A stretch of 64,000 nucleotides of DNA from Desulfurobacterium sp. TC5-1. Its GTDB lineage: Bacteria; Aquificota; Aquificia; Desulfurobacteriales; Desulfurobacteriaceae. The DNA lies in the NCBI RefSeq assembly GCF_000421485.1, contig NZ_ATXC01000001.1:744001-808000 (forward strand). The letters are read 5' to 3'. The notes under the pieces were generated by a model. It saw only the letters and a program-made list of their open reading frames with translations, did no database searches and was not told the DNA's origin. Positions 4,192 to 22,650 of this stretch are shown here, piece by piece (the first letter of the stretch is position 1; each line of letters starts with the position of its first letter). A program made the position numbers and the translations under genes.

Positions 4192-4322
4192 TTCGGAAGT
4201 CGAGCGGTAGAAGTTCCATCATTAATGTATTGTTTTTTTACTTTTCTGTTCTGAATTTTACCTCTTTATAACTGCTTAATTTTCCCTTCTTTGTATCTAT
4301 TGGTAACTTTTGTAGGGAATTT

Positions 4323-4359
4323 TTAAGTATTTTATTAAAGTGACTTATAAAATACTTAA
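4323..4359. promoter_or_regulatory. Perfect 13-bp inverted repeat upstream of Rep-like gene
   Basis: TTAAGTATTTTAT (4323-4335) and ATAAAATACTTAA (4347-4359) are exact reverse complements separated by 11 nt. It lies about 100 bp upstream of the winged-helix gene start. An autoregulatory operator or an origin-proximal initiator site is the likely role; a terminator is unlikely because the arms are A+T-rich and no T tract follows. Confidence 0.5.
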
Positions 4360-4457
4360 GTATAGGGATTTTTCAAAAATTTCCTCTTTAATATTTACCA
4401 GATTTTTCCCTTTGGACTATATTGAATAAAGGCAACATAAAGAGAGGAGGTGTAGGT

Positions 4458-5141: not shown

Positions 5142-5163
5142 TTTTTTCCAAAAAAACTTGAGG

Positions 5164-5838
5164 TCACTCTCCATTCGGAACAATAGTAATAACCTTCGCA
5201 AGTGTTTTGATATCTTCGGGTTTTACAATTACAGGATGATAATCAGGATTGTAGCTTTCAAGAACAATAACATCTTTTTTCTTATAAAACTTTTTCAAAA
5301 GAAGCTCACCTTCATCGTCACTTTCTTTGGTAAGTTCTACCACGGCTATATCGCCGTTCATTACCGAGCTGTCCAGATCAGCAAGTACCCAGTCTCCCGG
5401 TTGAAGGCGCGGTCTCATTGAATCTCCCTCAACTCTAAAGAAAAAAACCCTGTGATGAGCTTTTTTCCTGGGAACCCAGGCCATTTTCAGTTCAGACGGT
5501 GCCGAAATAGCAGGGTAAAGTCCACGTCCGGCTCTTACCCGTGAAACAACAGGCACCGGCATAAGAACAAAATCAGCAGGTGCCACATCCAGAAACTTCA
5601 ACTCATTACGTTTCAGGAACATTTCTCCTTTACCTTCACGCAACCATTCAGGGTTGACAGAAAAAACTTTTTCTATCAACCTTATCACTCTTTCAGAAGG
5701 TTCAGTTCTGCCACTTTCCCATTCCTGAATAGAACGTTTTGAGCGGCCAAGACGTTCACCAAATTGCACCTGAGTCAAACCAAGAACCCTTCTTAGCTCT
5801 TTAATTCTACTGCCTATATTGCCATTCTTCATCATCAC
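5164..5838 (-). CDS. CI/LexA-like repressor (XRE HTH + S24 peptidase)
   Basis: A 224-aa repressor. Residues ~8-60 are an XRE helix-turn-helix (IKELRRVLGLTQVQFGERLGRSKRSIQEWESGR). The C-terminal half is an S24 autoprotease: a candidate cleavage Ala-Gly in RVRAGRG, catalytic Ser in EGDSMRPRLQPGD and a Lys in ELLLKKFYKK. Such repressors self-cleave with RecA filaments during DNA damage. It is divergent from the small-gene operon at 5998 and convergent with the Rep-like gene. It is the likely master switch of the element, inducing transfer or excision genes under SOS (inference from family and position). Confidence 0.85.
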   Translation of the reverse strand: MMMKNGNIGSRIKELRRVLGLTQVQFGERLGRSKRSIQEWESGRTEPSERVIRLIEKVFSVNPEWLREGKGEMFLKRNELKFLDVAPADFVLMPVPVVSRVRAGRGLYPAISAPSELKMAWVPRKKAHHRVFFFRVEGDSMRPRLQPGDWVLADLDSSVMNGDIAVVELTKESDDEGELLLKKFYKKKDVIVLESYNPDYHPVIVKPEDIKTLAKVITIVPNGE

Positions 5839-5866
5839 AGATCAACCCATAATCATCAAATTATGC

Positions 5867-5917
5867 CACAAAAACGAACTATAAGTTATTGACAATACGC
5901 AAAAATGAACCTATACT
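5867..5917 (+). promoter_or_regulatory. Sigma70 promoter with paired operator-like repeats
   Basis: TTGACA at 5889-5894 and TATACT at 5912-5917 with a 17-nt spacer form a near-consensus promoter firing rightward. Two direct repeats, CACAAAAACGAACTATA (5867-5883) and CGCAAAAATGAACCTATA (5898-5915), are 31 bp apart and cover the -35 flank and the -10. They are good candidate operators for the divergent CI-like repressor. A short palindrome, AACTATAAGTT (5877-5887), lies between them. Confidence 0.65.
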
Positions 5918-5997
5918 TCAAAATAAGCATAGCACTAATGTCACGAAAATCATCACAGATAAGCTGTATAATGATAGCACAGTTTTCGGGGGATAAA

Positions 5998-6171
5998 ATG
6001 AAAAGAGAAAGCTTTGACTGGATTCATCAAAAGCTGGAAGAGATATGTGATTCTATCTCCTCAACCAATTTCTCAGAAGAAGAAAAGGCAGATATGATAG
6101 AATGTATGATGGAAGTGATAACTTACTTTGAAACAATTTCAGAAGAACAGAACGATAAACCTGATTTTTGA
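5998..6171 (+). CDS. Small acidic helical protein
   Basis: A 57-aa, mainly helical acidic protein (MKRESFDWIHQKLEEICDS...). I chose the ATG at 5998 because GGGGGA lies 5 nt upstream; the longer frame starts inside the promoter. First gene under the repressed promoter at 5889, followed 7 nt later by the triplicated gene family. No recognisable family; it could be an antirepressor or an activator given its position. Confidence 0.55.
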   Translation: MKRESFDWIHQKLEEICDSISSTNFSEEEKADMIECMMEVITYFETISEEQNDKPDF

Positions 6172-6178
6172 GGCAGTT

Positions 6179-6520
6179 ATGGGTTTTCTGGATCTATTTA
6201 AAAACATAACCGAAGAAGAGGAACTTGACGAACTCACAGGCCTTCCAAAGCATCTGGTTGAGAGAGAGGAGGAGGCTTTCATTAAAAGAAAGCTTTACGA
6301 GGAAGGTAAACTTCCCGAAGAGGAGAAAAAAACCGATAGAAAAGAAAGCAGAATCTGTTACGAGTGCGGATTCCCTTATGACTGCGATATAGAGAACTCC
6401 AGAAAAAAACGCAGTTTTTCCACCCGGAATAACTTTGATGACGATCTTTTTGATTCCATTAAAAGAACATTTGACGAACTTAGTGGAATGTGGATGGGTC
6501 CCTGTAATCTCGACGATTAA
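6179..6520 (+). CDS. CYECGFPY-family small protein, copy 1 of 3
   Basis: A 113-aa protein: hydrophobic start MGFLDLFKNI, an acidic/basic helical middle (residues 12-55), a putative metal-binding CYECGFPYDC (about 61-70), and a variable Asp-rich tail ending NLDD. No family recognised. It lies 7 nt downstream of the 57-aa gene, probably in the same repressor-controlled transcript. The next two genes are near-copies, so it belongs to a recent tandem amplification. Confidence 0.6.
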   Translation: MGFLDLFKNITEEEELDELTGLPKHLVEREEEAFIKRKLYEEGKLPEEEKKTDRKESRICYECGFPYDCDIENSRKKRSFSTRNNFDDDLFDSIKRTFDELSGMWMGPCNLDD

Positions 6521-6568
6521 TGCAGGTCTTTCGGATTATTGAACTCAGACGATGATGGAGAAGCAGTT

Positions 6569-6916
6569 ATGGGTTTTCTGGATCTGTTTAAAAACATAAC
6601 CGAAGAAGAGGAACTTGACGAACTCACAGACCTTCCAAAGCATCTGGTTGAGAGAGAGGAGGAGGCTTTCATTAAAAGAAAGCTTTACGAGGAAGGTAAA
6701 CTTCCCGAAGAGGAGAAAAAAACCGATAGAAAAGAAAGCAGAATCTGTTACGAGTGCGGATTCCCTTATGACTGCGATATAGAGAACTCCAGAAAAAAAC
6801 GCAGTTTTTCCACCCGGAATAACTTTGATGACGATCTTTTTGATCCTATTAAACAACTTGAAGAAGCGTTTGATGGCCTTGATGGAACTACAATAAATGA
6901 GTACTCTGATCTATGA
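6569..6916 (+). CDS. CYECGFPY-family small protein, copy 2 of 3
   Basis: A 115-aa copy of the preceding gene. The first ~85 residues differ from copy 1 by a single visible substitution (TDLPKHL for TGLPKHL); the tail from about residue 90 is different and ends NEYSDL. The ATG at 6569 is embedded in the same GGAGAAGCAGTT context as copy 3. The spacer before it carries a fragment of the 3' end of the convergent traG gene. Confidence 0.6.
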   Translation: MGFLDLFKNITEEEELDELTDLPKHLVEREEEAFIKRKLYEEGKLPEEEKKTDRKESRICYECGFPYDCDIENSRKKRSFSTRNNFDDDLFDPIKQLEEAFDGLDGTTINEYSDL

Positions 6917-6968
6917 TTAACACAAATCTTTCGGATTATTGAACTCAGACGATGATGGAGAAGCAGTT

Positions 6969-7298
6969 ATGGGTTTTCTGGATCTATTTAAAAACATAAC
7001 CGAAGAAGAGGAACTTGACGAACTCACAGGCCTTCCAAAGCATCTGGTTGAGAGAGAGGAGGAGGCTTTCATTAAAAGAAAGCTTTATGAGGAAGGTAAA
7101 CTTCCCGAAGAGGAGAAAAAAACCGATAGAAAAGAAAGCAGAATCTGTTACGAGTGCGGATTCCCTTATGAGATGGAAAATGCCGGCAAAAAACAACATC
7201 CTTTTTCTCGTCGTCGAAGTATCTTTGACGATGACGATGATAGAACATTTGACGAACTTGATGGAATGGAGATAGGGCTCTGTAATCTCGACGATTAA
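6969..7298 (+). CDS. CYECGFPY-family small protein, copy 3 of 3
   Basis: A 109-aa copy. The N-terminal ~68 residues are as in copy 1, but after CYECGFPY the second half diverges (EMENAGKKQHPFSRRRS) and the third acidic Cys is lost, leaving CxxC only. The tail (LCNLDD) again resembles copy 1. It converges on and overlaps the traG stop by 4 nt, so the two genes share a TTAA at their ends. Confidence 0.6.
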   Translation: MGFLDLFKNITEEEELDELTGLPKHLVEREEEAFIKRKLYEEGKLPEEEKKTDRKESRICYECGFPYEMENAGKKQHPFSRRRSIFDDDDDRTFDELDGMEIGLCNLDD

Positions 7299-10200
7299 TG
7301 CAGGTCTTTCGGATTATTGAACTCAGGCGGAGCTTCCGGTTTTCCTCCCGGCGCTCCCTGTCCCTTCCATTCACTGTAAGGAATATATTGTTTTTTCCCA
7401 TTACGATATACTACATATTCGGGCATCGGCTTTTCCTGCATCCTGAAAGCGAAATATCCCGTCTTGCTGTTGTAGCCAAGATAAACCCCCGGCGTTATTT
7501 TGGCTATCTTTTCTCCATTTTTTGCCCGTATTACTTCCCCGGGTTTCATACCTAATAATTCCTTTCTGTTTATGGAATCTACAACCCTGTCAGGTTTATC
7601 CTGCATCTTGTTCAGAATATCCCCCATCATCTTATTGGGAACGAAATCTCTAATTTCGTGGATTCTCATCGCGTCATTGTTCCAGCCAAGCACCATGACC
7701 TTTCCTTCATCGTTTCCGAGAAGACCCCACCTGTTGAAAGAATCTACTAACAGGTTTCTTGCCGCTTCTATTCCTTCTTTACTTGCTACGTGACCAAAGT
7801 CAATCTTGTCCTTATACGACTCAAGTGCCTCATAGCCCCTTCCCGCATCTTTGCCGTGATTACTGTTGTAAGCTTTTTCAACCTGTCCTTTACCTGCATT
7901 TATTGCTCTTTTAACATCAGGACGATTACCAATCTTTGAAGTGTTTATATTTGTACCTAAATGTTCAGGATCCACCTTCATTTTTTCAATATTTTCAAGA
8001 GCTTTAAAATCTCCGCCTGAAACCCGGTTCAGAACTTTCAGGCCTTCCTCCGGATTTGTCGCAAAGAGCTTATTCAGATTATTCATAATTTCGGCTGCTT
8101 TTTCTATCCTTTTATCAGGATCGGTTATTCCCTGTGCATCAAGATACTTATTGAAAACTTCAGGAAGAGCGTTAAGATTTTCTGAGAGGTTTCTTTCGGA
8201 AATCTTTGAAGCTCCCTCTCTGTACTCTTTTGCTTTTTGCATGTATTCAGAAACTGACTCACTCCACTTTTGAGCCTCTGAAAATTGATTCCGATAACCA
8301 CTATCTTTTACGCCTCTCCGGGCGGCTTTAAGGATACGGCTGGCACTTTGTGAAGAAATAAAGTTTTTAGCAAACTGTTCCCTAAAAGCTCTGGCCTCCT
8401 TACCTGTTAATGTTACTTCATAGTCATTATCTTTGTTTTTAAGTTTTACAATTTCCCCTTCTGCACTGGCTTTCGCACTTACAATTTCCCAATTTCCTTT
8501 AACTGCAGCGTTTGCACTTAGAGCTCCCTGTGCTGTAAGCCTATCCTTCTTAATTACTCCATTTTTCACCATATCTTCAAGAGTCTTGGAAATAACGCTT
8601 TGTTCCGTTTTCCTTGCTTCCTTCTTCAGAGAATCAGAGTATTGATTTCCTTCCTCCACGGTCTCAATAGCCCTAACAGAGGTTCCAAAAGCTCTATCTA
8701 CACCAACAGTCTTAATATAATCAGACGCAGCTCTTTTGCCGCGCTGTTCCATTTCTGAAGCATTTTTGGAAAGCTGCTCTCTCAGTGTAGCTGTCTTTTT
8801 AAAAGCGGCGTTAGAGAGATTTACATTGGTTATGGTGCCGTCTGATTTCAATGCCGTAACGCCTGCACCTCCCTTGCTCACTATTTCAGTATCGCCCACT
8901 ATCTTTTCATTAAATCCTTTATTATTAACGTGCTCCGCCATAATAAGTTGTCCCTTATCATACTTTTCAAATCCTCTACCGTCCGAAATCGTTCCCGTGA
9001 AATTACCATTCCTATCCACTGCACCGTTTATGACTTTCCCGGTTTCTGTCATACCTGAGATTTTCATTCCACCGTTAGCAGTCCTGGTAGCATAGCCATC
9101 AATAAATCTTTCTGTTGACAGGCTTCCCAGTTTTCCTAAACCTGCTTCCCATGCATAATGACCTGCAAGTTTTGTAGTTTTTTCACCCCCTTCACTTACC
9201 CAGGAATGCCAGGGAGTATTGAAAGATTGCCTTCCGTTGACATTCATAGAACCTGCTTCAAGGCGGTTTTCAAATCCCATATTTTCCCTGTGAAGCCAGT
9301 CAACGTTGTTTGATGAAACGTTGTTATATGCTACATTTCCGAAACTTGCAGAACCCCTTGCTGCTTCTCCTGCACCTCTTTCAGCAGCTCCCGCTGCCAT
9401 ACCCATGAGTCCGGAAGCAACATTTGTAAATGCGTAAGCACTGCCTGCAGCAAGACCGAAAGAAACTGTGGGTATAAGCCAGTAAAATGATGAAAATGCA
9501 ATAATTTTATCCTGAGCAGCTGCAGCAACTCCAGCAGAATTAAGCAGCGTAAAACCTCCGTTAGCAATTGCTGACAGATAATCCCGGGCAGAGTTTAAAA
9601 TAAAAGCATTCAGCACAACTTCACCGATATGCCACAGGAGGAACCACGCATACACAACGAAAATTGTCTTAAAAACCTTTTCCCCTCCGAAAATTCCGAC
9701 AAGAAGAACGAAAGGAAGCATGGCAACAAAGAAGGCCGTTGCTACTCCTTTGGCCATCGGCAGGAACTTTGCCCCGGTAATTGCTTTTGCCAGTGAAGTC
9801 TGTTTCAACTGTTCCGTTGCTGTTGATAAAGAGTAAGCAAGTGCATCCGGATTGACACCGGCAGCTATAGCCCACTCCCTATATCCGTCTTTCATCTGGT
9901 TAATTGCTATCCCCTGAAGAATAGCATCCTGAGCAGTAGTTGAATAATTCATAAAATAATCGTTAGCAATACCGAGCACGCTCGCAATTTTTGCGGCCGA
10001 AAGAAAACCTATGCTCTTTGAGAGAACGTCAAGGGCATCTGTATTAACGTAAGTGTTCAATTGCCCTGTAAGAATACCGTAGGCGGAATCACAACTGTAC
10101 ACCGTTCCCTCAGGATCAGAAGCATCATAAATAACAGTAAATCTTGCAGGATTTGTTCCGCCAAGTTCGGTCCACAAAGTTGTAGAGGTTTGCAGGTTTG

Positions 10201-10816
10201 TAAGGCTTTTTGTCCCGTCGAGAATATCAGGAATAACACAATCCTCTACATAATTGTTCACGCTTTTATAAATGTAGGGATCCACCGGCCTTGTAGCCTG
10301 GACCTCTGATGCAACAACTGCAAGAGGTGCTATAGGACCAACATTATTGTAGCTTAAATCTGCAGCCGAAAAAGGCAAAAACGATCTTTCTGCAACTCCT
10401 CCTAAAACCTTTTCCGTCTGCGTAAATAAAGCCAGCGGTCTTGCTATAATCCAGGGAACATTGTTGATAATTTCATTGGAGCCGTTTACCAGATCCTCAA
10501 CAGCAACCGGAACACGGATCTGTATCAGCAAACTGAATACGATAGATCCTACAATACCTACTTTGAATATAGAAAAATAATCAACCCTTTTTCCTATTGA
10601 AAACAGAACAGAGAAAACCGAAGAAAAAACAGCAAGCCCCATAAAAACTTTAAATAAGCTGTGAAAATCACCGGAACCAACTACAGAAATAACTCCTCGT
10701 AGTGCTTCAGCTATCAGATCTCCGTATCCCCACGTGTATATCGTATCAACTGCCATAGCTGTGTGAGGAACAGCCACAAGTAAAAGTACAAAAAACAGAA
10801 TATTTTTTCTCTTCAA
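7295..10816 (-). CDS. traG: F-type conjugal transfer protein TraG
   Basis: A 1173-aa protein. A signal peptide (1-22, ...PHTAMA) is followed by hydrophobic segments about 53-75 and 83-103, a periplasmic-like stretch, and further membrane segments about 360-410 and 440-470. The rest is a long polar helical C-terminal region. This matches TraG of F-type type IV secretion, an inner-membrane protein that stabilises mating pairs and contacts the recipient, with the TraG_N part at the front. It starts 15 nt downstream of traH, as expected for an F-like tra pair. The C-terminal region is longer and more divergent than F TraG. Confidence 0.8.
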   Translation of the reverse strand: MKRKNILFFVLLLVAVPHTAMAVDTIYTWGYGDLIAEALRGVISVVGSGDFHSLFKVFMGLAVFSSVFSVLFSIGKRVDYFSIFKVGIVGSIVFSLLIQIRVPVAVEDLVNGSNEIINNVPWIIARPLALFTQTEKVLGGVAERSFLPFSAADLSYNNVGPIAPLAVVASEVQATRPVDPYIYKSVNNYVEDCVIPDILDGTKSLTNLQTSTTLWTELGGTNPARFTVIYDASDPEGTVYSCDSAYGILTGQLNTYVNTDALDVLSKSIGFLSAAKIASVLGIANDYFMNYSTTAQDAILQGIAINQMKDGYREWAIAAGVNPDALAYSLSTATEQLKQTSLAKAITGAKFLPMAKGVATAFFVAMLPFVLLVGIFGGEKVFKTIFVVYAWFLLWHIGEVVLNAFILNSARDYLSAIANGGFTLLNSAGVAAAAQDKIIAFSSFYWLIPTVSFGLAAGSAYAFTNVASGLMGMAAGAAERGAGEAARGSASFGNVAYNNVSSNNVDWLHRENMGFENRLEAGSMNVNGRQSFNTPWHSWVSEGGEKTTKLAGHYAWEAGLGKLGSLSTERFIDGYATRTANGGMKISGMTETGKVINGAVDRNGNFTGTISDGRGFEKYDKGQLIMAEHVNNKGFNEKIVGDTEIVSKGGAGVTALKSDGTITNVNLSNAAFKKTATLREQLSKNASEMEQRGKRAASDYIKTVGVDRAFGTSVRAIETVEEGNQYSDSLKKEARKTEQSVISKTLEDMVKNGVIKKDRLTAQGALSANAAVKGNWEIVSAKASAEGEIVKLKNKDNDYEVTLTGKEARAFREQFAKNFISSQSASRILKAARRGVKDSGYRNQFSEAQKWSESVSEYMQKAKEYREGASKISERNLSENLNALPEVFNKYLDAQGITDPDKRIEKAAEIMNNLNKLFATNPEEGLKVLNRVSGGDFKALENIEKMKVDPEHLGTNINTSKIGNRPDVKRAINAGKGQVEKAYNSNHGKDAGRGYEALESYKDKIDFGHVASKEGIEAARNLLVDSFNRWGLLGNDEGKVMVLGWNNDAMRIHEIRDFVPNKMMGDILNKMQDKPDRVVDSINRKELLGMKPGEVIRAKNGEKIAKITPGVYLGYNSKTGYFAFRMQEKPMPEYVVYRNGKKQYIPYSEWKGQGAPGGKPEAPPEFNNPKDLH

Positions 10817-10830
10817 GACTTTCCTCTGAA

Positions 10831-12270
10831 TCAGATTTTATTTATTCCTAAACTGAGAAGGTATGCTCCGGCAATCGGTGAATGACCCATCGCCTGCATA
10901 ATTTCCTTGTTAAGTTCTTCATAGAACTTTTGATTTTGCATATCCTTGATAAATTTATCGTGAGCTTTTCCGTAGAATTTTGATACTTCTTTCAGAAGCT
11001 CAAGAGTGTTTTTTTGCATGATTTCAAGATTCCCCTCGAGACCTTCCCCGTAAGCTGTGTTTCTTAGTTCAGGAGAAATTTGATATCTTACGTACGCAAG
11101 CTTTTCATTTATGGCATTTAGCGTATTTGAAAGAATTTCATAGGCATATTCAGCAGCGAAAAGACGTACAAGATCGGCTTTTACTCCATCCCTGACCTGA
11201 TCAGGAACAAGAGAAAACGTATTCAATAATGAATAAACAGGCACATCAAATCTGTTTATAAACTCTATAGTAGTTGCTCTTGGTCTAATTCTATATCTTA
11301 TCGCGTTAAAAACATCAGTGACAGCATCCTGAGCATACACACATGCAGGGTTGTAATTAGTCACCGTGACATACGCACCTGACTTATCCAGACCCTTAAC
11401 CGAAGCCAAACTGGAACACGTTCCGGAATTATCATCGTATCCCGTGAGAATTTTAACAACGGACATTGCATTTTCATTTACATTTTCATCATTTTTCCTT
11501 ATAGGCACGACCGGTTCTTCAGCACCTGTATCTATCCTGAAGTCACCTATATATGCACGTAATATGTCTTCAAGATCAGGATCATACATATCAGTATCTT
11601 CTAAAAGATCGTGAAGAAAACTATCCGTATCTGTCAGTTTTTTTGCAACTTTACATGCAAAACCTGTACAATTAATTGAAGTATTAAATTCACTTACAAG
11701 ATCTGTCATATTATCCAGGAATTTATCTGCCCCAGAAAGCCAGTCGGAGGTTTTACCTTTAATACTTCTGGCTATTTCAGTCCCTGCTAAGCGTTCCTTT
11801 AAATTATTGGATATAGCCGTTGCAATCTTACAGCTATCAAAATTCATACTGTTTATCTGATTTGCCAATGATGTTAATTTCTTTATGGTTGATGAACATT
11901 TTTCACATAAAGCTCCCAGAGCTATGTCAAACGCCATTGCCGACACTGTTCCCGGGTTGAAGACACTTTTCGCAAAACTTTCCCAGTACTTTCCATCTCT
12001 AAGATAAGAAAAACTGCCGGTGACTATATCTATCCCACCGCAACCCACCTCTATTTTCGGCGGTATTACCGAAAACGGCTGAATAACTGTTCTCGGAGCT
12101 TGAACGGTAAAACGACCACCAACATAATAGCGCCTTGTCTGACTGTCAAATACTCCTGAAGAATCTGCCGGCGTTTCAACTACAAATTTATCAAGATAAT
12201 CTTTAATTCCGGCTTTTGCGGAGGAAGTTATTAAAATGATACCGCTCAACACAGCCAACAATCTCCGCAT
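10831..12270 (-). CDS. traH: F-type conjugal transfer pilus assembly protein TraH
   Basis: A 479-aa protein with a signal peptide (ILITSSAKA). The segment GRFTVQAPRTVIQPFSVIPP followed by EVGCGGIDIVTGSFSYL is characteristic of TraH, as is the downstream CEKC pair. TraH acts in the periplasm with TraF and other Tra proteins in F-pilus assembly. It heads a two-gene leftward unit with traG. No other F-type core genes (TraB, TraC, TraK, TraU) are in the window; they should lie to the left beyond it or the set is incomplete. Confidence 0.85.
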   Translation of the reverse strand: MRRLLAVLSGIILITSSAKAGIKDYLDKFVVETPADSSGVFDSQTRRYYVGGRFTVQAPRTVIQPFSVIPPKIEVGCGGIDIVTGSFSYLRDGKYWESFAKSVFNPGTVSAMAFDIALGALCEKCSSTIKKLTSLANQINSMNFDSCKIATAISNNLKERLAGTEIARSIKGKTSDWLSGADKFLDNMTDLVSEFNTSINCTGFACKVAKKLTDTDSFLHDLLEDTDMYDPDLEDILRAYIGDFRIDTGAEEPVVPIRKNDENVNENAMSVVKILTGYDDNSGTCSSLASVKGLDKSGAYVTVTNYNPACVYAQDAVTDVFNAIRYRIRPRATTIEFINRFDVPVYSLLNTFSLVPDQVRDGVKADLVRLFAAEYAYEILSNTLNAINEKLAYVRYQISPELRNTAYGEGLEGNLEIMQKNTLELLKEVSKFYGKAHDKFIKDMQNQKFYEELNKEIMQAMGHSPIAGAYLLSLGINKI

Positions 12271-14127: not shown

Positions 14128-14155
14128 ATTATATCCAACTTCTATCAATCTTCAA
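14128..14155 (-). promoter_or_regulatory. Promoter of the Met/His-rich lipoprotein
   Basis: On the reverse strand, TTGAAG (14155-14150) and TATAAT (14133-14128) are separated by 16 nt, a good sigma70 promoter. It overlaps the last codons of hcgG. GGAGTGAACG precedes the lipoprotein ATG. Confidence 0.6.
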
Positions 14156-15668
14156 GTGTTATAACATTATCTAAACCGCGGAATTTCCTTATAAGCGAAG
14201 GGATAAAAGAGCAAACAACACTAACTTGCGAATTATTTATACATGTATCATCATCACCGTTGCAACCAATTATCTTTACTGGAAGATTTTTATCAAGATG
14301 AGCAACCGTAACAGTTTCAACAGCTTTATCCCTATCACTAATCCTTATCTCTTCAACAAAGGGAGCAACAGCTTTTGCGATTCCCCAGGCGATAAACCTA
14401 CCACCTATTAAACCAAGCTTTTTAATGTTTCTCCGTTTTAGCTCCTCCACAAGAGCTTTAAGGCTGTATTTCAACTTTAACTTAGCACTGAGTGGAGAAG
14501 TCAGAAGGAGAAACCAGTGAGCATCCCCTATAAAGATATCTCCGATCTTGCCAAAAGGATATATAGAATCCAATCCTAAAAACTTTGCCGACTTGGCTAT
14601 TATTTCCGTCGTACCTCTATCAGCCGGAACTGGAAAAGGTGAAGCCGTAACCTCTTCAGCCATAACTTCTACTACTTTTGGAAGTCCAAATTTTGTTACT
14701 GTAGCTTCACCAGGCATGTAACCTGACATGTATGCGTGGTGATTACCGGGAAAACCACTTATAACACTGTTTAATCCACACTTTAGACCAAATCTCAACT
14801 CATCTTCATACTGTCCATTCGTCGCAACAATTTTTCCTGGCGAAAGAATCCTTGCCATCACAACAGCTTCGCCAAAAGCTCTTACTCTATTTCCAGCACA
14901 GTTATAAGGGCCACCCTCTATAACCACCTCATCTATTTTATAATCTACACAAGCTTTAATACCCCTTGCAAGTTCTTCCTCACCATCTCCAACACAGATA
15001 ATTGCACCAACACCTTTACCGTGCTTTTTCGCAAATTCTATAACAGATAGAGTTTCTTCAGGCGGCGCTGCATGAGAGGTGTTTTTTTGAAAAGCCATTA
15101 GACTAACGCTTATTGATTGAACAACGCTTGGCCACAAATCTTTTTCGTAAGAAAATGCTTTCTCCTTATTTTCAAGCCTCTTATGAATCCTTCCGCGAGG
15201 ACAACCGTTAAAAGGTTTACCACTTCTATAACAATCGGCAGGACATTTAACTATCTCTTCAGGATACCTCATAGGCCCGTATTTACCGAAATGGTCAACA
15301 TCCACAGGCATATCTGTAAGACTGCGAAGATCTTTCATCAATTCAAAAGGTGTCATTCCTTCTCTTTCAGCTATATCTGCAACAGCATACGAACAAACAT
15401 GAACCGGAAATCCTAATCTATCAACAAGGCGGAAACCACCTTTAATCTCTGTGAGACTTTGCTTCAAACTTACAACATCAACAAGAACTTCATTCAAGTC
15501 ACACCCAAACGGAAACTCTTTGTAAGAAGAACCAAGGCAAATTAGCTCTTCTTCAGAAAGTCCCTTTAAAGCTCTAAGTAATGCAGAAGGATTCTGTTTC
15601 CCTTTTTCCATTAATTCATACTTACTTTCCAAATCACCAGAAAGCACTTTTTCAATAACTTCTTCCAC
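14145..15668 (-). CDS. hcgG: FeGP cofactor biosynthesis protein HcgG (HmdC)
   Basis: A 507-aa protein of the size and type called HcgG/HmdC, which co-occurs with [Fe]-hydrogenase genes and is needed for FeGP cofactor maturation; proposed roles concern the late Fe/CO/acyl steps. Visible features are an N-terminal helical part, a Cys-rich segment KCPADCYRSGKPFNGCPRG about residue 140-160, and a Gly-rich C-terminal Rossmann-like segment (KLGLIGGRFIAWGIAKAV). Start is GTG at 15668 with AAAGGAGGAAAT upstream, overlapping the hcgE end. Last gene of the hcg operon. I assign G by length, context and the absence of any other candidate. Confidence 0.75.
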   Translation of the reverse strand: MEEVIEKVLSGDLESKYELMEKGKQNPSALLRALKGLSEEELICLGSSYKEFPFGCDLNEVLVDVVSLKQSLTEIKGGFRLVDRLGFPVHVCSYAVADIAEREGMTPFELMKDLRSLTDMPVDVDHFGKYGPMRYPEEIVKCPADCYRSGKPFNGCPRGRIHKRLENKEKAFSYEKDLWPSVVQSISVSLMAFQKNTSHAAPPEETLSVIEFAKKHGKGVGAIICVGDGEEELARGIKACVDYKIDEVVIEGGPYNCAGNRVRAFGEAVVMARILSPGKIVATNGQYEDELRFGLKCGLNSVISGFPGNHHAYMSGYMPGEATVTKFGLPKVVEVMAEEVTASPFPVPADRGTTEIIAKSAKFLGLDSIYPFGKIGDIFIGDAHWFLLLTSPLSAKLKLKYSLKALVEELKRRNIKKLGLIGGRFIAWGIAKAVAPFVEEIRISDRDKAVETVTVAHLDKNLPVKIIGCNGDDDTCINNSQVSVVCSFIPSLIRKFRGLDNVITLED

Positions 15669-16323
15669 ATTTCCTCCTTTGATGAAATTTTAAAACTTGA
15701 ATTGCTATTGCATCTGCAACTCTATCAAGGATAATGGGGGAAATGGGTAAGCCATCTTTTATCAAAATTCCTGTGCCAATAAACGCAGTTAACGGGGAAG
15801 AAGCTGGAAAATCGTACTCTTTTAAAAACAGTGCAGGCCCCCTTTCAACTGAAGCAAGAGAAATAAAGGTTCCCACCTCTTCATCACCAAAACCAAATAC
15901 ACCGTTAGTGGTAATAAAAGGAATTCCTTTCTCAATACAAAATTTTCCAACTGTAGCTACAAGCGGAATGGTATCCCCTCCTGCTATTGTAGATACGACA
16001 ACTGATGCATCTTCCAGACAGTCGATATTACTTTCAGAAAAATCAAAGGGAAAAGCCTCTATCTCTTTATAGCGGGTATCAGGCGTAAGAAAGCGTCTTT
16101 TCAAAAAAGAAGCTTTGTTTTCTTTTGGAAGTGCTCCTTTTAGAATATGATAGTAGTCATTCTCTTCTATTGTTCCTCCATCAAAAACGGTAATCTTCGA
16201 AAATCCACCTCTATGAGTCATAACAAGCCTTTCAAAAACTCTAACTCCAAGCCTCCCGGCTCCAAGAAGAACAAGTTTGCCGTAAGGAACGAGTTTTTCT
16301 TCTAAAATAGTAACTCTATCCAT
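15652..16323 (-). CDS. hcgE: FeGP biosynthesis ThiF/E1-like enzyme HcgE
   Basis: A 223-aa E1/ThiF-fold protein. LVLLGAGRLGVRVFERL is the dinucleotide-binding loop and ITVFDGGTIEENDYYH the Asp-containing strand that follows. HcgE adenylates the carboxyl group of guanylylpyridinol before its transfer to HcgF. It is shorter than MoeB/ThiF and has no CxxC zinc pairs, as expected for HcgE. The start abuts the hcgF stop with overlap, and the gene ends inside the hcgG start. Confidence 0.85.
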   Translation of the reverse strand: MDRVTILEEKLVPYGKLVLLGAGRLGVRVFERLVMTHRGGFSKITVFDGGTIEENDYYHILKGALPKENKASFLKRRFLTPDTRYKEIEAFPFDFSESNIDCLEDASVVVSTIAGGDTIPLVATVGKFCIEKGIPFITTNGVFGFGDEEVGTFISLASVERGPALFLKEYDFPASSPLTAFIGTGILIKDGLPISPIILDRVADAIAIQVLKFHQRRKCGRSY

Positions 16324-16834
16324 TCTTTACTACCTCTACAAAGTCAGGAATTTCTCCACCTTTAATAAGAGATTTCAAAAGAAGAAGAGTTTTATTAACT
16401 GCTTCCTCCTTTCTCTTCAAAATTTTCTCAACACTTGCAAAAGGGAAACCTTCAACTTTATTCGTTGTTCTAATTATAAAAATTTCCTTATTAAAGCGCA
16501 AACACACTACACCTCTTCCATTTCCAGCACTTGAAGCAACAGAGATGTTTACGCCCAATTTTTCTTTTATAACCCTGGAAAGAATAAGTGTTACGTTTAC
16601 ATTTTCCACTTCATCATAGACCTTTATTCCATTGACGTGAGCACGAGGCGGGGGAAGCATCACTCCCAAAATTTCTTCTATAGAATAGACGGAAGGCAGA
16701 AACATAACGGCGGAAACGGAAATTGGTAATTTGTTCTTAACATAAGGAGCAGAAAGTTTATGAACACCCATACCAATTTCACAATGGGTAAAACACTCAA
16801 TCGAGGCAAAAGTCAGAGTACGGGAAACCGACAT
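16316..16834 (-). CDS. hcgF: FeGP biosynthesis protein HcgF (UPF0254-like)
   Basis: A 172-aa protein whose N-terminus FASIECFTHCEIGMGVHKLS matches the ECFTHG-type motif of UPF0254/HcgF. In the methanogen protein the Cys of this motif (Cys9) forms a thioester with the pyridinol acyl group after activation by HcgE. Here it is Cys14. ATG at 16834 has GGAG 7 nt upstream and overlaps the hcgD end by 38 nt; a slightly longer ORF from 16855 is less likely. Adjacent hcgE supports the partnership. Confidence 0.85.
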   Translation of the reverse strand: MSVSRTLTFASIECFTHCEIGMGVHKLSAPYVKNKLPISVSAVMFLPSVYSIEEILGVMLPPPRAHVNGIKVYDEVENVNVTLILSRVIKEKLGVNISVASSAGNGRGVVCLRFNKEIFIIRTTNKVEGFPFASVEKILKRKEEAVNKTLLLLKSLIKGGEIPDFVEVVKNG

Positions 16835-17486
16835 CAACAAACTCCGTATCAACAAAATCTTTTAGGCGGTTAGCAAATTCTACCATTCCGGGAATTTCAG
16901 TTTTGTAGTGAGAAGCATCTATAAAACCCATCTTGGCCGCTCTTAATCTGCAAGCCGTATGATGGACAAGATCACCGGAAACAGCAATATCAATATTAAA
17001 CTTGAAAAGATTCTGAATAAAATCAGAAAAGTTAAAACCACATCCGCTGAACACAGCGACTTTCTCTATCTTCTCAGGAAGATGATAAAAAACTTTCTTT
17101 AAATTAAGAACCTTCATAACCTTCTCTAAAAATAGCTCTGGCGATATCTCTATCATCCCATACATTCCAAAACGATTATCATCAAAAAAAGAAAGGTTTT
17201 CCAAACCTAAAATATTCCCAAGCGCGTAATTACATCCCCAATCTATTCGGTCAAGAGGCGTATGAACAACAAAAACGGGAAAATTAGGATTAAAAGAGGG
17301 TTTGTGGTGAGCAACAACAACATCAAATTTAGAAAAGTCAAAATCATGTGGAACATCAACAACAACAGCTACATGTTCTACTTTTCCAGGTCTAAAATCA
17401 GCAACCCATCCGTAAAAATCCCCGGCAACAGCGTAAGACTCAGGAACAATTTCTCTTACAATCTTTTCAAAATTTTGCCAGTTCAA
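16797..17486 (-). CDS. hcgD: NIF3-like FeGP biosynthesis protein HcgD
   Basis: A 229-aa NIF3/GTP cyclohydrolase I type 2 fold protein. Metal ligands are visible in VVAHHKP, VHTPLDRIDWGCN, DLVHHTACR and DASHYKTE. HcgD binds two irons and is proposed to deliver iron for the cofactor. The start appears to be TTG at 17486 (AGGAGATGAAAT upstream), overlapping the end of hcgBC by 20 nt. NIF3 proteins are widespread, but the operon position makes HcgD the clear reading. Confidence 0.85.
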   Translation of the reverse strand: MNWQNFEKIVREIVPESYAVAGDFYGWVADFRPGKVEHVAVVVDVPHDFDFSKFDVVVAHHKPSFNPNFPVFVVHTPLDRIDWGCNYALGNILGLENLSFFDDNRFGMYGMIEISPELFLEKVMKVLNLKKVFYHLPEKIEKVAVFSGCGFNFSDFIQNLFKFNIDIAVSGDLVHHTACRLRAAKMGFIDASHYKTEIPGMVEFANRLKDFVDTEFVDVGFPYSDFCLD

Positions 17487-18639
17487 ATTTCATCTCCTGT
17501 AAAATCCCATTTAAAACGTCCTCAAAATAGTCAGCCTTAAAGTTTCCTCCGTTTTTTACTGAAGCGGTAACCGCCGGAATCTCCATCACATCAAGAAAAC
17601 CACGACTACTTTTTGCATTAAACAACAACGACTCAGCAAAAAAGAGATTAGGCACGGCGTAAAGAACATCATTAAACTTTTCTATCTCAACAGAAATTTT
17701 TCTTACTGTATGAATCGTTAAGGTCATAGTTCCTGATGTCTTTCCCCTGTAATCCATTTTAAGGAAAAAGTCCGGCTTCTTTTCTGTTTCAAGAACCTCA
17801 AGTCCAGAAGGTTCCTCTGAAATAATAACTTTTCCTTTGAATTTCCCTGCCTGACCCCGACTAACATCAATCCCCCCAAAACCTGTAAGGTCAATAATAA
17901 CGTCAAACTCTTCCCTTTCAGGCTTATTGAAAGGAGAAAGAGCCATAACACTTTTTTCTTTATCATACAGGAAAATTTCTCTAAAATTATTTTTCAAATA
18001 TTCAGCAATAAATATTCCATCAAGATAACCACCAATTACAAGGAGTGAATCACCTTTGAACTCTTTAAGCACTTCCGCCTTTTTTTTAGCTATTTTTTTG
18101 GCAACATCCAAAACAGTGAAAGATGAATAAACCGTTCGTGTCCTGTTTGTTATACCTTTGTGAACAGGAACCATGCCAAGTCTTTTCAAAAGTCTAAAAA
18201 CATCAAAGAAAAGTGCCGTTTCCAAAGATAAGCCATGAATGTGATGAGGGGGCGAGGTTACAGCCGATATAACATTTCCATAAACATCAATCAAAATCGT
18301 CAACGCCCCGCTCCCAGGAAGTCCAAGCCTTCCTCTGGCAATGTAAAAATCACACTCCCCAAAGTAACGCCCTGATAGTGCTTTGGACAGTGAAGGCATC
18401 TGCTCCAAATCAAAAATGTCGGTAGGAACACAAATCTGAATAACATTTTTAACACCAAACATACCAAGAGTATTTTTGAAAATTGAAAACTTTTTATGAT
18501 TGTCCGTTACAACCCCAAACTTACCATCAAGTAAAAGCTTTTTCAGAGCTTCTGTCTCTTCAGGTTTGTCACCTTTTCGGATACCGTTAAGGGATTCTTC
18601 AAAAGCTTTTTTAAACAGAGAGCGGCTTTTTCTCCACAT
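17467..18639 (-). CDS. hcgBC: HcgB-HcgC fusion (guanylyltransferase + methyltransferase)
   Basis: A 390-aa protein (from ATG at 18639) that appears to join two enzymes. Residues ~1-155 look like HcgB, the pyridinol guanylyltransferase: VVTDNHKKFSIFKNTL, VPTDIFDLEQMPSLSKAL, IARGRLGLPGSGALTILID and SPPHHIHG. Residues ~165-390 look like HcgC, the SAM-dependent pyridinol C-methyltransferase: a Rossmann motif LLVIGGYLDGIFIAEYL and the later KMDYRGKTSGTMTLTIH. In methanogens the two are separate adjacent genes of about 150-170 and 270 aa. No stop or frameshift separates them here. It overlaps hcgA by 29 nt. HcgC part is short by ~40 residues. Confidence 0.75.
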   Translation of the reverse strand: MWRKSRSLFKKAFEESLNGIRKGDKPEETEALKKLLLDGKFGVVTDNHKKFSIFKNTLGMFGVKNVIQICVPTDIFDLEQMPSLSKALSGRYFGECDFYIARGRLGLPGSGALTILIDVYGNVISAVTSPPHHIHGLSLETALFFDVFRLLKRLGMVPVHKGITNRTRTVYSSFTVLDVAKKIAKKKAEVLKEFKGDSLLVIGGYLDGIFIAEYLKNNFREIFLYDKEKSVMALSPFNKPEREEFDVIIDLTGFGGIDVSRGQAGKFKGKVIISEEPSGLEVLETEKKPDFFLKMDYRGKTSGTMTLTIHTVRKISVEIEKFNDVLYAVPNLFFAESLLFNAKSSRGFLDVMEIPAVTASVKNGGNFKADYFEDVLNGILQEMKFELAKF

Positions 18640-19480
18640 TTGTTTTAATCCCGTGTTTTTCAAGGAGTGGTAGAATTTCTTCAAGGACACCCACAACAGG
18701 TGAACCAACACCTTTCACAACTAAAGGATAACCTGCTGGAATAACCGTCGCAATGTTCGTAGCACCAGCTCTAATCGCAGGAATAAGTCCTTTCATTAAA
18801 ATAGTGGGAAAAGGAACCGTCAACCTTCTCAGGCTATTTATATGCTCTTTTACCCTTTTTATAACGTCTAACTGTAACGATAAAGACGCAGGGGGATTCT
18901 TTTCCATTGGCGTATTTTTATAAGGTCTAAATCCCATAACTGGAACTTCTTCTACTTCCAATTCTTTTAAAAATTCAATATGCTTCTCTCTATCTTCTTC
19001 AGATTCACCAATACCCACAAGAATGCCACTTGAAAGTTCAACACCCTGTTCTTTAACCTGGTAACAAACCTTCATTCGTTTTTCAAGAGAGTCATCTGGC
19101 TTTAGCTTTTTAAAAAGTCTGGGATTCATGGTTTCGAGATTACAACATATCGTATCAACACCTGCACCTTTCAATAACTTTATCTTCTCAGTATCTAAAT
19201 CACCACCAATATTTATCAAAACCCTTAAAGATGTATTTTCTTTTACAATCTCAAGAGCGGACAGAACTTTTTGAAAATTTCCATACCCAGCAGAAAGACT
19301 CACCCTCTTTATTCCATTCCTTTCTATAAAAAGTGCCGCCCTCTTTATCTCTTCTCTCTTCTTACTTGTAAGATAGAAATACCCTTCAACAGAAGTGCCC
19401 ACCGCAAATCCGCAGTAGGCACACTTTCTTTTAAAACTACAATAATTACTAATATGTATTGTCGAAGTAATTTCCACCAT
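18611..19480 (-). CDS. hcgA: Radical SAM enzyme HcgA (HmdB)
   Basis: A 289-aa radical SAM enzyme with the unusual cluster motif CX5CX2C (CSFKRKCAYC, residues 14-23), diagnostic of HcgA/HmdB rather than the common CX3CX2C. The downstream NIGGDLDTEKIKLLKGAGVDTICCNLE segment resembles biotin synthase-like barrels. HcgA is proposed to build the pyridinol ring precursor of the FeGP cofactor. The ATG at 19480 lies 5 nt after the Roadblock stop, so Hmd, Roadblock and Hcg genes form one transcription unit. Confidence 0.9.
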   Translation of the reverse strand: MVEITSTIHISNYCSFKRKCAYCGFAVGTSVEGYFYLTSKKREEIKRAALFIERNGIKRVSLSAGYGNFQKVLSALEIVKENTSLRVLINIGGDLDTEKIKLLKGAGVDTICCNLETMNPRLFKKLKPDDSLEKRMKVCYQVKEQGVELSSGILVGIGESEEDREKHIEFLKELEVEEVPVMGFRPYKNTPMEKNPPASLSLQLDVIKRVKEHINSLRRLTVPFPTILMKGLIPAIRAGATNIATVIPAGYPLVVKGVGSPVVGVLEEILPLLEKHGIKTNVEKKPLSV

Positions 19481-19485: not shown

Positions 19486-19866
19486 TTAAACACCAAGCAC
19501 TGACGTAATCCTATCTATCGCATCCTCAACTTCTATGTTGAGAAGACCAATATTGGCATCAGATTTTATCACACATACGAGAATAGCCCTCTTCCCGGCC
19601 TTTTTAGAAAGGATATTTTGTTTCGAACATCTGATGAGTGCATCCTCAAAATCTCCAGCTTCAACAACTTTTGAAAGTCTTTCAGATGTACCAACAACCG
19701 CTGCAGCCATAGCTGCAAGCTTTTCAGCGCTTAAACCGCCTTTAAGCATTGTTGAAACGACAACCTGACCATCAGGTGTCGCTACAAGAGCACCGAGCAT
19801 ATCAGCGCCAAGTGAATCAGCAAGATCTGAAAGTATTTCTTCTAACATTTCTCTTTTGCTTGCCAT
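19486..19866 (-). CDS. Roadblock/LC7 domain protein, copy 1 (with hmdII-1)
   Basis: A 126-aa single-domain Roadblock/LC7 protein: N-terminal helix (MLEEILSDLADSLGAD), strand pair LGALVATPDGQVVVSTM, the LSAEKLAAMAAAVVGTSERL helix and C-terminal LLNIEVEDAIDRI. The family forms dimers that scaffold or regulate small Ras-like GTPases (MglB, dynein LC7). No GTPase is adjacent. It lies 31 nt downstream of hmdII-1 and 5 nt before hcgA. A near-identical gene sits at the same place behind the second hmdII, so its function is probably tied to HmdII. Confidence 0.85.
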   Translation of the reverse strand: MASKREMLEEILSDLADSLGADMLGALVATPDGQVVVSTMLKGGLSAEKLAAMAAAVVGTSERLSKVVEAGDFEDALIRCSKQNILSKKAGKRAILVCVIKSDANIGLLNIEVEDAIDRITSVLGV

Positions 19867-19897
19867 AATTCCTCCCCTATCATGTTAAGCATAAAAA

Positions 19898-20965
19898 TTA
19901 TTCTCTGTCTGAAACACCTTCATAAAACTTCTTCCAGGATTCTCTTAGAATACCCTTGAGAACATCATCACCAACAAGATCTTCCATATATTCAACAAGC
20001 ATTGGTGACGGTGCTGACATATAAACAGCTTCTGAAGGTGCAAAACTTTCTGCCTCTTTCACAAGCTCAGGAACTATTTCGCCAATTTTCTCAAGAAGTT
20101 CTGAAGCTGTTACGGTCATTGGCTGCACATCTCTGTCAAGAATCATTGACTTTAAGGAATCTTTCATAGCGTCAACGTTGAGAAGTTTTATTAAACCACC
20201 GAGGCCGTACTTTGCAACCAGACTTGAAACAACTTGAAGAGATTGAGCAATTTGAAATTCCGTCATTGAACGTTTAGTTTTCAATACATCTCTTGCAACT
20301 CTATAATATTCAATCGCTCCAGTGAAAGCAATCGCTGTCGTAACAATACCCATATCACCAACAGCTGAAACAAGCTCAGCAGGAAGGAGATAAACTTTTT
20401 TACCTGCATCAATGGCAAGATTTTTTAACTTACCAATCTGTTCATCTGTAACAATAGGTTTCCTCAAAAGTTCATTCGTTGCAATCAGATAATGCTGATG
20501 TTGTGGAGTACCCGGAATAGCTGCAGGATGCATGGTTGAAAATCCAATATCTTCTCGTCCTTCCATAAAAATAGCATTCTGGAGATAAGAATTGAGAACA
20601 AGGATTGACATAGTACATGTAGTACAAATAACTGCATCTTCTGCCAGATAAGGAAGTATATTCTCAGCTATTTTAAAAGTCACACCACCTCTAAAAGGTG
20701 TAAAAAGAATGGCAATTTCTGCATCTTTCGCTGCTTCCACATCATCAGTCGTAAGCTTCACTCCTGCAGTTTCAAGTTTTGACTTTATATCAACCGGAAC
20801 TCTATCCAGGTGAGGGTCTGCCAACGTTACATTATGCCCGGCCTGAGCAAATTCAAGCGCCATTGCTGAACCGCCGTACGGGGGGCTACCACCAAGTCTT
20901 TCAGGAACATTTAATTTATAAAGATAGTAGTTGAGACTTCCAAAGCCGTAAACCGTGACTTTCAT
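19898..20965 (-). CDS. hmdII: [Fe]-hydrogenase paralog HmdII, copy 1
   Basis: A 355-aa Hmd-family protein. An N-terminal Rossmann fold (YGFGSLNYY) carries the FeGP cofactor. Cys117 in VICTTCTM corresponds to the iron-ligand Cys176 of methanogen Hmd, and His146 in GFSTMHPAAIPG to the conserved HPGAVPEM His. LPAELVSAVGDM is also conserved. The Hmd His14 position (THAASG) is Tyr here, as in HmdII paralogs. Hmd transfers hydride between H2 and methenyl-tetrahydropterin; a Desulfurobacterium HmdII was reported to use tetrahydrofolate derivatives. First gene of the Hmd-Roadblock-hcg operon. Catalysis or H2 sensing are both possible. Confidence 0.9.
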   Translation of the reverse strand: MKVTVYGFGSLNYYLYKLNVPERLGGSPPYGGSAMALEFAQAGHNVTLADPHLDRVPVDIKSKLETAGVKLTTDDVEAAKDAEIAILFTPFRGGVTFKIAENILPYLAEDAVICTTCTMSILVLNSYLQNAIFMEGREDIGFSTMHPAAIPGTPQHQHYLIATNELLRKPIVTDEQIGKLKNLAIDAGKKVYLLPAELVSAVGDMGIVTTAIAFTGAIEYYRVARDVLKTKRSMTEFQIAQSLQVVSSLVAKYGLGGLIKLLNVDAMKDSLKSMILDRDVQPMTVTASELLEKIGEIVPELVKEAESFAPSEAVYMSAPSPMLVEYMEDLVGDDVLKGILRESWKKFYEGVSDRE

Positions 20966-21025: not shown

Positions 21026-21577
21026 TTAATATTTAGCGTTATTTTTATAGTATCTCTCTTTTTCAGAATATATGCAACCGCAGTACTGCTGTCTGTAAAG
21101 ATTATACTCCTTTGACTTTTCTATCCCCTCTCTCCATCCCTTTCTAAAATCTCTATAAAGAAATTTAACACCAAATTTCGATGCAGCAGATTCTGCACAC
21201 ATTTTCATTATTTCATGATTTTGGTATTTACTGTAAAACAGAGTTGAGGTAAAAAAATCAAATTTCCCCTTTTTAGCAACACTCGCAGTCATTTCAAAAC
21301 GCATTGAGTAACATATTTGACACCTGATGGGTCTCTCCTCTCTGTAAACCACCGCCCTAAGCCACTCTTCAAGGGGATACTTATTAATATAAATAATCTT
21401 GATTTTAGTGATTTCTTCAAATTTTTTAACTGTTTCAAGCCTTTTTAAAAATTCAGTGTATGGATGAATATTAGGATTATAAAAAAGACCATAAACTTCA
21501 AAATCTTCTTGTTTTAAAACTTCCAAAGGATAACAGGCACACGGCGCACAACAGATGTGGAGAAGAACTCGCTTCAC
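21026..21577 (-). CDS. queH: Epoxyqueuosine reductase QueH
   Basis: A 183-aa protein of the QueH (former DUF208) family, which reduces epoxyqueuosine to queuosine in tRNA and replaces QueG. Metal/cluster cysteines are visible in LLHICCAPCACYP (residues 8-14), RCQICYSMRF and the C-terminal QQYCGCIYSE. Length is normal. It overlaps the end of the GGDEF-like gene by 4 nt. Confidence 0.9.
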   Translation of the reverse strand: MKRVLLHICCAPCACYPLEVLKQEDFEVYGLFYNPNIHPYTEFLKRLETVKKFEEITKIKIIYINKYPLEEWLRAVVYREERPIRCQICYSMRFEMTASVAKKGKFDFFTSTLFYSKYQNHEIMKMCAESAASKFGVKFLYRDFRKGWREGIEKSKEYNLYRQQYCGCIYSEKERYYKNNAKY

Positions 21578-22650
21578 TTTTCAAGCTCCACATCAAGGTC
21601 GGTTTTTATGGTGTTACCACCCTCTTTATTTGCAAGTTCTAAAGCCTCAAGAGCCTTCGTTATAAGATCCGTCTCATCCATGTCTTTTCTTGCAACAGCA
21701 GCTCCAACACTTACCGTTACCTTCAAAGTTTTTCCGTTAATACTGATCAACATATCCTCTATTGATTTTCTTACACGTTCACCTATCCTTATAGCATGCC
21801 CAAATGTTACACCAGGTAACAAAATTCCAAAAATGCTGTCATCATAATAAGCCACAACATCATTTACTCTTAAGAGTTTCTTTAATTTTCGAGCCACTTC
21901 TTGAAGAACTATTTTTCCTGCCTTTTCCCCTTCACCCTTTACAATTTCTTCAAACTTATCTAATTTAACCATTAAAACAGCAAATGGATAATTTCTCGAT
22001 TCAAAATCATCAAACATATCCTTTAACACTTTCTCAAAACTCTTTTTGCTTGCAATTTCCGTAAGAAACTCTATCAAAACGTTTTTCTCAGACTCATCAA
22101 GTTTCTCAGATACTTTCTCAATTTCCTTTCTTGACTCTTGAAGTCTCTTTCTCAAAGTTTCATTTTGAAGTTTTATATCATTCAACGCTTTTACAACCGT
22201 CTCTAACATGGCTCTTAAATTTTCATCAGATAAAACTTCTGTGGTTTTTTCCACTTTTTCAGCGTGATTTTCTATTATTTTGTTATGATTATCTATATCT
22301 CTCAAAACTTTTTCAATTTCGGCAGTTACCTCTTCCGCTATTTGCCTTATAAATTTCCGATCTGCTTTGTTTATTTTCAAAATGGCAGTTTCAATAACAG
22401 ATTCATCTGGATATTTCTCCTTAAAAATACCCATTATTTCAGGATCTGATAGATCTTTACCTGTTTCATGTAAATAGCAGAAAATATCAAACCACAAATA
22501 GTAATTTAGCGGGGTAAGAGGGATTCCATTCCTTACAAGAAACTTGATCTCTTCTTTAGCAATAACAGAAATTTTTTGATAATCCGATAGAGATAAACCA
22601 TCACCAGAATTTATCTTTTTCATTAATTCACATTCAAACTGATTCACCAT
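21574..22650 (-). CDS. Degenerate GGDEF-domain protein
   Basis: A 358-aa cytoplasmic protein: an N-terminal helical domain (1-~120), a coiled coil (~120-195, NETLRKRLQESRKEIEKVSEKL), and a C-terminal GGDEF fold. The signature loop reads VVAYYDDSIFGILLPG, where active diguanylate cyclases have GGDEF, so the metal and substrate residues are not conserved. A dead cyclase acting as a nucleotide-binding or protein-interaction module is likely. It is translationally coupled to folB and queH. Confidence 0.8.
   Translation of the reverse strand: MVNQFECELMKKINSGDGLSLSDYQKISVIAKEEIKFLVRNGIPLTPLNYYLWFDIFCYLHETGKDLSDPEIMGIFKEKYPDESVIETAILKINKADRKFIRQIAEEVTAEIEKVLRDIDNHNKIIENHAEKVEKTTEVLSDENLRAMLETVVKALNDIKLQNETLRKRLQESRKEIEKVSEKLDESEKNVLIEFLTEIASKKSFEKVLKDMFDDFESRNYPFAVLMVKLDKFEEIVKGEGEKAGKIVLQEVARKLKKLLRVNDVVAYYDDSIFGILLPGVTFGHAIRIGERVRKSIEDMLISINGKTLKVTVSVGAAVARKDMDETDLITKALEALELANKEGGNTIKTDLDVELEK

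Follow-up and report, generated by a model that had tools for sequence, protein, structure and literature searches.

Genes in the window

The window, which denotes the whole 64 000-nucleotide stretch of Desulfurobacterium sp. TC5-1 DNA analysed here, contains two genes for HmdII, a paralogue of [Fe]-hydrogenase (Hmd), each followed by a gene for a Roadblock/LC7 protein (Table 1). The two pairs, with intergenic gaps of 31 nt (hmdII-1) and 12 nt (hmdII-2), were described in the initial annotation and are confirmed by the family profiles TIGR01724 and PF03259. Its statement that hmdII-2 is the only other hmdII in the window holds for the whole TC5-1 genome, in which no further HMD-family gene was found. 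Two Roadblock copies are indeed present, and their description as near-identical was slightly strong, with 87% protein identity; the two HmdII proteins share 60%. The Roadblock genes differ at 75 of 381 nucleotides (54 at codon position 3, 15 at position 1 and six at position 2), and the predominance of third-position differences points to purifying selection on the protein, as judged from the nucleotide sequences. A third Roadblock gene (G000:C1:176178) lies elsewhere in the genome, together with an MglA-like GTPase gene.

Table 1. Genes of the hmdII–Roadblock pairs and of the hcg cluster, in window positions.
Gene	Product	Position	Strand	Basis
hmdII-1	[Fe]-hydrogenase paralogue HmdII, 355 aa	19898..20965	-	TIGR01724, 329.5 bits (cut-off 167.2); PDB 6huy, 657 bits
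Roadblock 1	Roadblock/LC7 protein, 126 aa	19486..19866	-	PF03259, 41 bits (cut-off 23)
hcgA	HcgA/HmdB, radical SAM enzyme, FeGP-cofactor synthesis	18611..19480	-	TIGR03957, 332.6 bits versus 320.9
hcgB-hcgC	Fusion, guanylyltransferase and methyltransferase	17467..18711	-	PF11576 and PF06690
hcgD-like	NIF3/DUF34 protein	16797..17486	-	PF01784
hcgF-like	HcgF-like protein, start codon uncertain	16316..16855	-	Place in hcg cluster; NF002122, 109 bits (under cut-off)
hcgE-like	ThiF/E1-type protein	15652..16323	-	PF00899
hcgG	HcgG/HmdC, fibrillarin-like FeGP-cofactor protein	14145..15668	-	TIGR03958, 569.9 bits versus 407
hmdII-2	Second HmdII, 356 aa	53282..54352	-	TIGR01724, 309.9 bits (cut-off 167.2)
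Roadblock 2	Roadblock/LC7 protein, 126 aa	52889..53269	-	PF03259, 40 bits (cut-off 23)

Roadblock 1 is separated by 5 nt from hcgA, which is followed by the hcgB-hcgC fusion, the hcgD-like, hcgF-like and hcgE-like genes and hcgG. Because this run continues directly from the hmdII-1–Roadblock pair down to position 14145, the FeGP-cofactor genes and hmdII-1 make up one cluster. It is the only hcg cluster in the window, as against two hmdII–Roadblock pairs; no hcg genes lie near hmdII-2, and hmdII and Roadblock are the sole genes common to the two neighbourhoods. On the upstream side, a QueH-like gene separates hmdII-1 from a degenerate-looking GGDEF-domain gene (21574–22650, named by eye). The other side of the hcg cluster adjoins a stretch that resembles a mobile element (1317–12270, names likewise by eye), with a ParM-like gene, a TnpB-like transposase gene (2342–3760), a LexA/CI-like repressor gene (5164–5838) and large conjugation-type membrane genes (7295–12270). 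Two neighbouring small genes (6128–6520 and 6539–6916) encode almost the same protein and are a tandem duplicate.

HmdII family membership and reported properties

Both HmdII proteins pass the HmdII profile (TIGR01724, hmd_rel) and fall short of the true-Hmd profile TIGR01723, with 73 and 79 bits versus 341. Among solved structures, the closest is that of D. thermolithotrophum HmdII (PDB 6huy). The iron-ligand cysteine is kept: Cys117 is invariant in the HmdII alignment and falls in the same column as the ACT cysteine of Hmd. The N-terminal CYRTHAA segment of Hmd, which contains His14, is absent from the HmdII rows of the HmdII–Hmd alignment.

The role of HmdII (scaffold, sensor or enzyme) has been debated for about 25 years. 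Methanothermobacter HmdII has been reported to bind FeGP, and neither it nor HmdIII reduces methenyl-H4MPT with H2 (PMC3087415). HmdII was earlier proposed to be a sensor of intracellular methylene-H4MPT (PMC7460606). In Methanococcus maripaludis, Hmd reportedly functions without hmdII (Lie 2013, cited in PMC7460606). Folate derivatives are substrates of D. thermolithotrophum HmdII according to the title of Watanabe (2019), as cited in PMC7460606, and a catalytic role is therefore still conceivable. Binding of M. jannaschii HmdII to prolyl-tRNA synthetase was described in a report cited in PMC2739858, from which HmdII might act on protein synthesis with Roadblock in the same complex. We consider this extremely improbable, as the site analysis in PMC2739858 could not support the binding and no tRNA synthetase was noticed beside the hmdII–Roadblock pairs that were read.

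Pairing of hmdII and Roadblock in Aquificota

HMD-family genes occur in eight of 136 Aquificota genomes, all from Desulfurobacteriaceae, at 12 loci in total. A Roadblock orthologue directly follows hmdII at every one of these loci, which argues that the pairing is not due to chance. The initial annotation had put forward such a search among bacterial HmdII homologues as a check of its proposal, and had held that the proposal would fail if Roadblock genes were absent beside hmdII in related genomes or equally common beside unrelated genes; neither pattern was seen. Each of four species of the genus Desulfurobacterium has two hmdII–Roadblock pairs, and their Roadblock-2 copies form one clade (support 96/95 in a Roadblock tree of 122 columns), so that, most simply, hmdII and Roadblock were duplicated together and stayed together. 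For an origin of the bacterial Roadblocks from methanogens, the same 122-column tree gives no resolution, as long branches meet.

Distribution and pairing in archaea

Across the GTDB genomes scanned, relatives of HmdII turned up in Desulfurobacteriaceae, methanogens and other archaea, together with two short and weak proteobacterial matches; none were found in viral contigs. A strong Roadblock match is present in 27 of 29 Methanococcota genomes with HmdII versus none of seven without (36 genomes; Fisher p = 4e-6, ignoring kinship) and in 17 of 17 Methanobacteriota genomes with HmdII versus four of 135 without (152 genomes; p = 4e-19, ignoring kinship). Both HmdII-bearing Methanococcota genomes that lack a strong Roadblock match are small, with 0.9 Mb for G148 and 1.1 Mb for G139, and the latter contains a partial Roadblock. 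Among genomes with canonical Hmd and no HmdII, a strong Roadblock is found in none of seven Methanococcota and about three of 70 Methanobacteriota. Since Hmd-only methanogens are mostly without it, Roadblock tracks HmdII rather than Hmd, the hcg genes or the FeGP cofactor.

A Roadblock gene lies within 1 kb and on the same strand at 21 Methanococcota hmdII loci (18 genomes) and in all eight genomes of Methanothermobacter type (G318–G325). Three gene orders are found, hmdII–Roadblock, hmdII–GTPase–Roadblock and Roadblock–hmdII. Roadblock is present and unlinked to hmdII in Methanothermococcus-type genomes, and a Methanothermococcus single-cell genome carries four tandem hmdII genes with no adjoining Roadblock (L214, 4255–9069). 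The Roadblock copies within one Methanocaldococcus genome are nearly identical while the adjoining HmdIIs differ (L109/L202, L200/L111 and L108/L199), a pattern suggestive of gene conversion or of a single partner shared by the HmdIIs. In Methanobacteriota, a Roadblock gene adjoins a gene for a fusion of a KaiC ATPase and a small GTPase domain (L178, 239–1797; L204, L212 and others).

These distributions bear on two explanations that do not involve signalling. Roadblock might be an accessory for assembly or delivery of the FeGP cofactor that helps to load HmdII, as its position between hmdII and hcgA would allow, both in the window and at the fully read loci of the first type. Both the co-occurrence data and the second pair, which lacks hcg genes, weaken this explanation, and we consider it quite unlikely: hmdII-2 has its Roadblock with no hcg genes nearby, the Hmd-only methanogens counted above need FeGP yet mostly lack a strong Roadblock, and four bacteria without hmdII retain Roadblock beside a GTPase and an ODP-family gene. 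Alternatively, Roadblock and hmdII could be operon neighbours that travelled together and were kept without a shared function. Linkage is indeed missing in some archaea, and genomes from a single family do not count as independent cases; the variation in gene order nevertheless weakens this explanation, with three orders across two domains. Moreover, only Roadblock stayed alongside hmdII after its duplication in the four Desulfurobacterium species, and the co-occurrence persists where the two genes are unlinked. Neutral linkage is thus very unlikely, and the association of HmdII with Roadblock is well supported.

Small GTPase, robX and DUF4388-like partners

The gene order in M. jannaschii is hmdII–GTPase–Roadblock (L108), its HmdII being identical in sequence to the 4yt4 chain (MJ1338). 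The middle gene encodes a 154-residue small GTPase of the Ras/Arf type, with the P-loop GSSDVGKTT and the motifs GTPGQKRF and NKTD. Similar GTPase genes follow hmdII at most other Methanococcales loci; the frame is shortened in two archaea (G136 and G168), and none was seen between hmdII and Roadblock in two others (G161 and G162). D. thermolithotrophum (G123, L051), the HmdII of which has the 6huy sequence, and Thermovibrio (L053/L061) share the arrangement GTPase–robX–DUF4388-like–hmdII–Roadblock–hcgA to hcgG, in which the genes are closely spaced and run the same way; neighbours at the D. thermolithotrophum locus also include a rapZ-like gene.

The Roadblock (>70% identity), the GTPase (E < 1e-40) and robX (E < 1e-35) have an identical distribution in Desulfurobacteriaceae, each being present in the same 12 genomes out of 22. 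The initial annotation had suggested looking for a partner MglA-like GTPase elsewhere in the TC5-1 genome, and a partner GTPase gene was found at C1:518567–519100; robX and the DUF4388-like gene lie at about C1:901662–902907. Neither the GTPase gene nor robX is beside either hmdII–Roadblock pair. The predicted structure of the robX product has the order α-β-β-α-β-β-β-α (pLDDT 76), and its best matches in the PDB are Roadblock3, MglB and LAMTOR/Ragulator, which supports, at the level of a model, robX as a second Roadblock-fold protein. Sequence search of the PDB gave no link between robX and Roadblock, and profile–profile comparison tied neither robX nor robY, a separate TC5-1 gene, to Roadblock (probabilities 4% and 16%); for RobY, a Roadblock-like nature is at most suggested. 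The DUF4388-like protein is named by likeness, as its model is poor (pLDDT 41) and the DUF4388 match in the TC5-1 genome is weak (E = 0.08). Other Aquificota have a related set consisting of a membrane or coiled-coil gene, Roadblock, DUF4388 and GTPase; such sets occur without HmdII, which is therefore dispensable for them.

Alternative neighbours of Roadblock

In the four family members without hmdII (G115, G117, G118 and G134), the same Roadblock adjoins an ODP-family gene, opposite the GTPase–robX–DUF4388-like set. The closest solved relatives of this ODP are oxygen-binding diiron proteins. V4R and FIST genes lie beside archaeal hmdII. A separate robY–ODP pair occurs in the TC5-1 genome (L275, 1032–2217; G000:C1:1380 kb). 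ODP as a replacement for, or a marker of, lost HmdII was considered and dropped, as ODP-family matches are present in all 22 Desulfurobacteriaceae genomes and TC5-1 has its own robY–ODP pair; for the same reasons ODP is best described as an alternative neighbour of Roadblock.

Proposed function

The position of HmdII beside Roadblock, often near a Ras-like switch, in thermophilic bacteria and methanogens suggests that its job is sensing and not metabolism. We consider it rather probable that HmdII serves as the sensor in a Roadblock/Ras-like small-GTPase switch, in which contact, signal direction, ligand, GAP or GEF activity and output are predicted features. This reading draws on the gene identities, the linkage and co-occurrence, the bacterial and archaeal operons that include the GTPase, the modelled fold of RobX and the ODP exchange; the V4R and FIST neighbours, the retention of the iron-ligand cysteine despite loss of the His14 segment, and the earlier sensor proposal also favour it. 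The remoteness of the TC5-1 GTPase gene and robX from hmdII, the unlinked Roadblock of Methanothermococcus-type genomes, the Roadblock/GTPase sets that lack HmdII, the reported folate substrates and the shortened or unseen GTPase frames of four archaea speak against it. The initial annotation had joined HmdII and Roadblock in an H2- or methenyl-folate-sensing signalling module. A functional and probably signalling module stands, given the linkage, the co-occurrence, the same-operon GTPase and the ODP, V4R and FIST neighbours, while its contact, ligand and output are what we infer.

In the proposed mechanism, the hcg gene products would make the FeGP cofactor, which would be loaded into HmdII. 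The ligand may be H2 or a methenyl- or methylene-tetrahydrofolate, or both, with the tetrahydromethanopterin form probably taking the place of the folate in archaea, and its binding would open or close the HmdII dimer; CO or another compound is a further candidate. Roadblock, as a dimerizing adaptor or a GAP-type regulator, would read the state of HmdII through a putative contact and pass it to the small GTPase, in TC5-1 the distant gene identified above and in M. jannaschii the product of the gene between hmdII and Roadblock. RobX may act alongside as the second Roadblock-fold protein.

The linkage data are equally compatible with the reverse direction, in which HmdII would be a slow enzyme linked to H2 or folate, with its activity or its location in the cell controlled by Roadblock and the GTPase. 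The tetrahydrofolate derivatives reported, in a study cited by PMC7460606, as substrates of D. thermolithotrophum HmdII would fit such an enzyme. The missing His14 segment, the inactivity of Methanothermobacter HmdII and HmdIII in reducing methenyl-H4MPT with H2 (PMC3087415) and the sensor-type nature of the ODP, V4R and FIST neighbours argue against it, and we regard this direction as unlikely.

A broader form of the sensor reading appears evenly balanced in our judgement: HmdII would be the sensor subunit of Ras-like GTPases across bacteria and archaea, bacteria that lack Hmd would keep the whole FeGP pathway solely to equip this sensor, which would respond to H2 or to the state of one-carbon folates, and the sensor slot would be exchangeable between HmdII, ODP and possibly V4R or FIST proteins. 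If the sensor reading is true, this would be the first FeGP-using signalling system known to us; it would explain why Desulfurobacteriaceae make the cofactor without Hmd, and would tie prokaryotic small GTPases, few of which have known inputs, to the metabolism of H2 or one-carbon units. The conserved Roadblock and the same-operon GTPase in two domains make the role of HmdII directly testable.

Comparison with known systems

The initial annotation knew of no described system of this kind, and likewise no description of HmdII together with Roadblock was found in open-access papers, the scope of the literature search (subscription literature lay outside it). M. jannaschii and D. thermolithotrophum HmdII (4yt4 and 6huy) belong to the same family as the window proteins (294–657 bits), but the open-access literature found on them discusses scaffold or methylene-H4MPT-sensor roles and never Roadblock. 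Modules of sensor, Roadblock and GTPase are already known, and an [Fe]-hydrogenase paralogue as the sensor would be the new element with respect to that literature. In HGbRL of Methylacidiphilum, a ligand-binding globin sensor is coupled to Roadblock by fusion (PMC4476040), and in Treponema the diiron protein ODP senses O2 in chemotaxis (PMC7666581); these sensors contain haem or a diiron site, whereas HmdII is predicted to bind FeGP.

The Streptomyces conservons (CvnA–CvnB–CvnC–CvnD) also encode a sensor, a Roadblock and a Ras-like GTPase together (PMC4316618), and the window Roadblock matches CvnB5 (PDB 3leq, E = 7e-6). A gene string comprising Roadblock, GTPase and hmdII, with HmdII as the putative sensor, is found in D. 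thermolithotrophum, Thermovibrio and M. jannaschii and not in the window. The conservon sensor is histidine-kinase-like, whereas in the HmdII system the putative sensor position is occupied by an [Fe]-hydrogenase paralogue accompanied by genes for making its cofactor. In D. thermolithotrophum, neither the GTPase nor RobX nor the DUF4388-like protein gave a Pfam match to a kinase or to DUF742 (CvnA/CvnC type).

The MglA/MglB polarity switch likewise combines a Roadblock regulator with a small GTPase, and RobX and the Roadblocks resemble MglB by fold or sequence. A GTPase gene beside Roadblock, as in MglA/MglB, is found in relatives and in M. jannaschii and at neither window copy. TC5-1 has a separate MglA/MglB pair, and the HmdII-linked Roadblock and GTPase belong to other lineages. 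This MglB/MglA-like pair directly follows genes resembling those of a 2-oxoacid:ferredoxin oxidoreductase (L003, 428–2512; G000:C1:175–177 kb).
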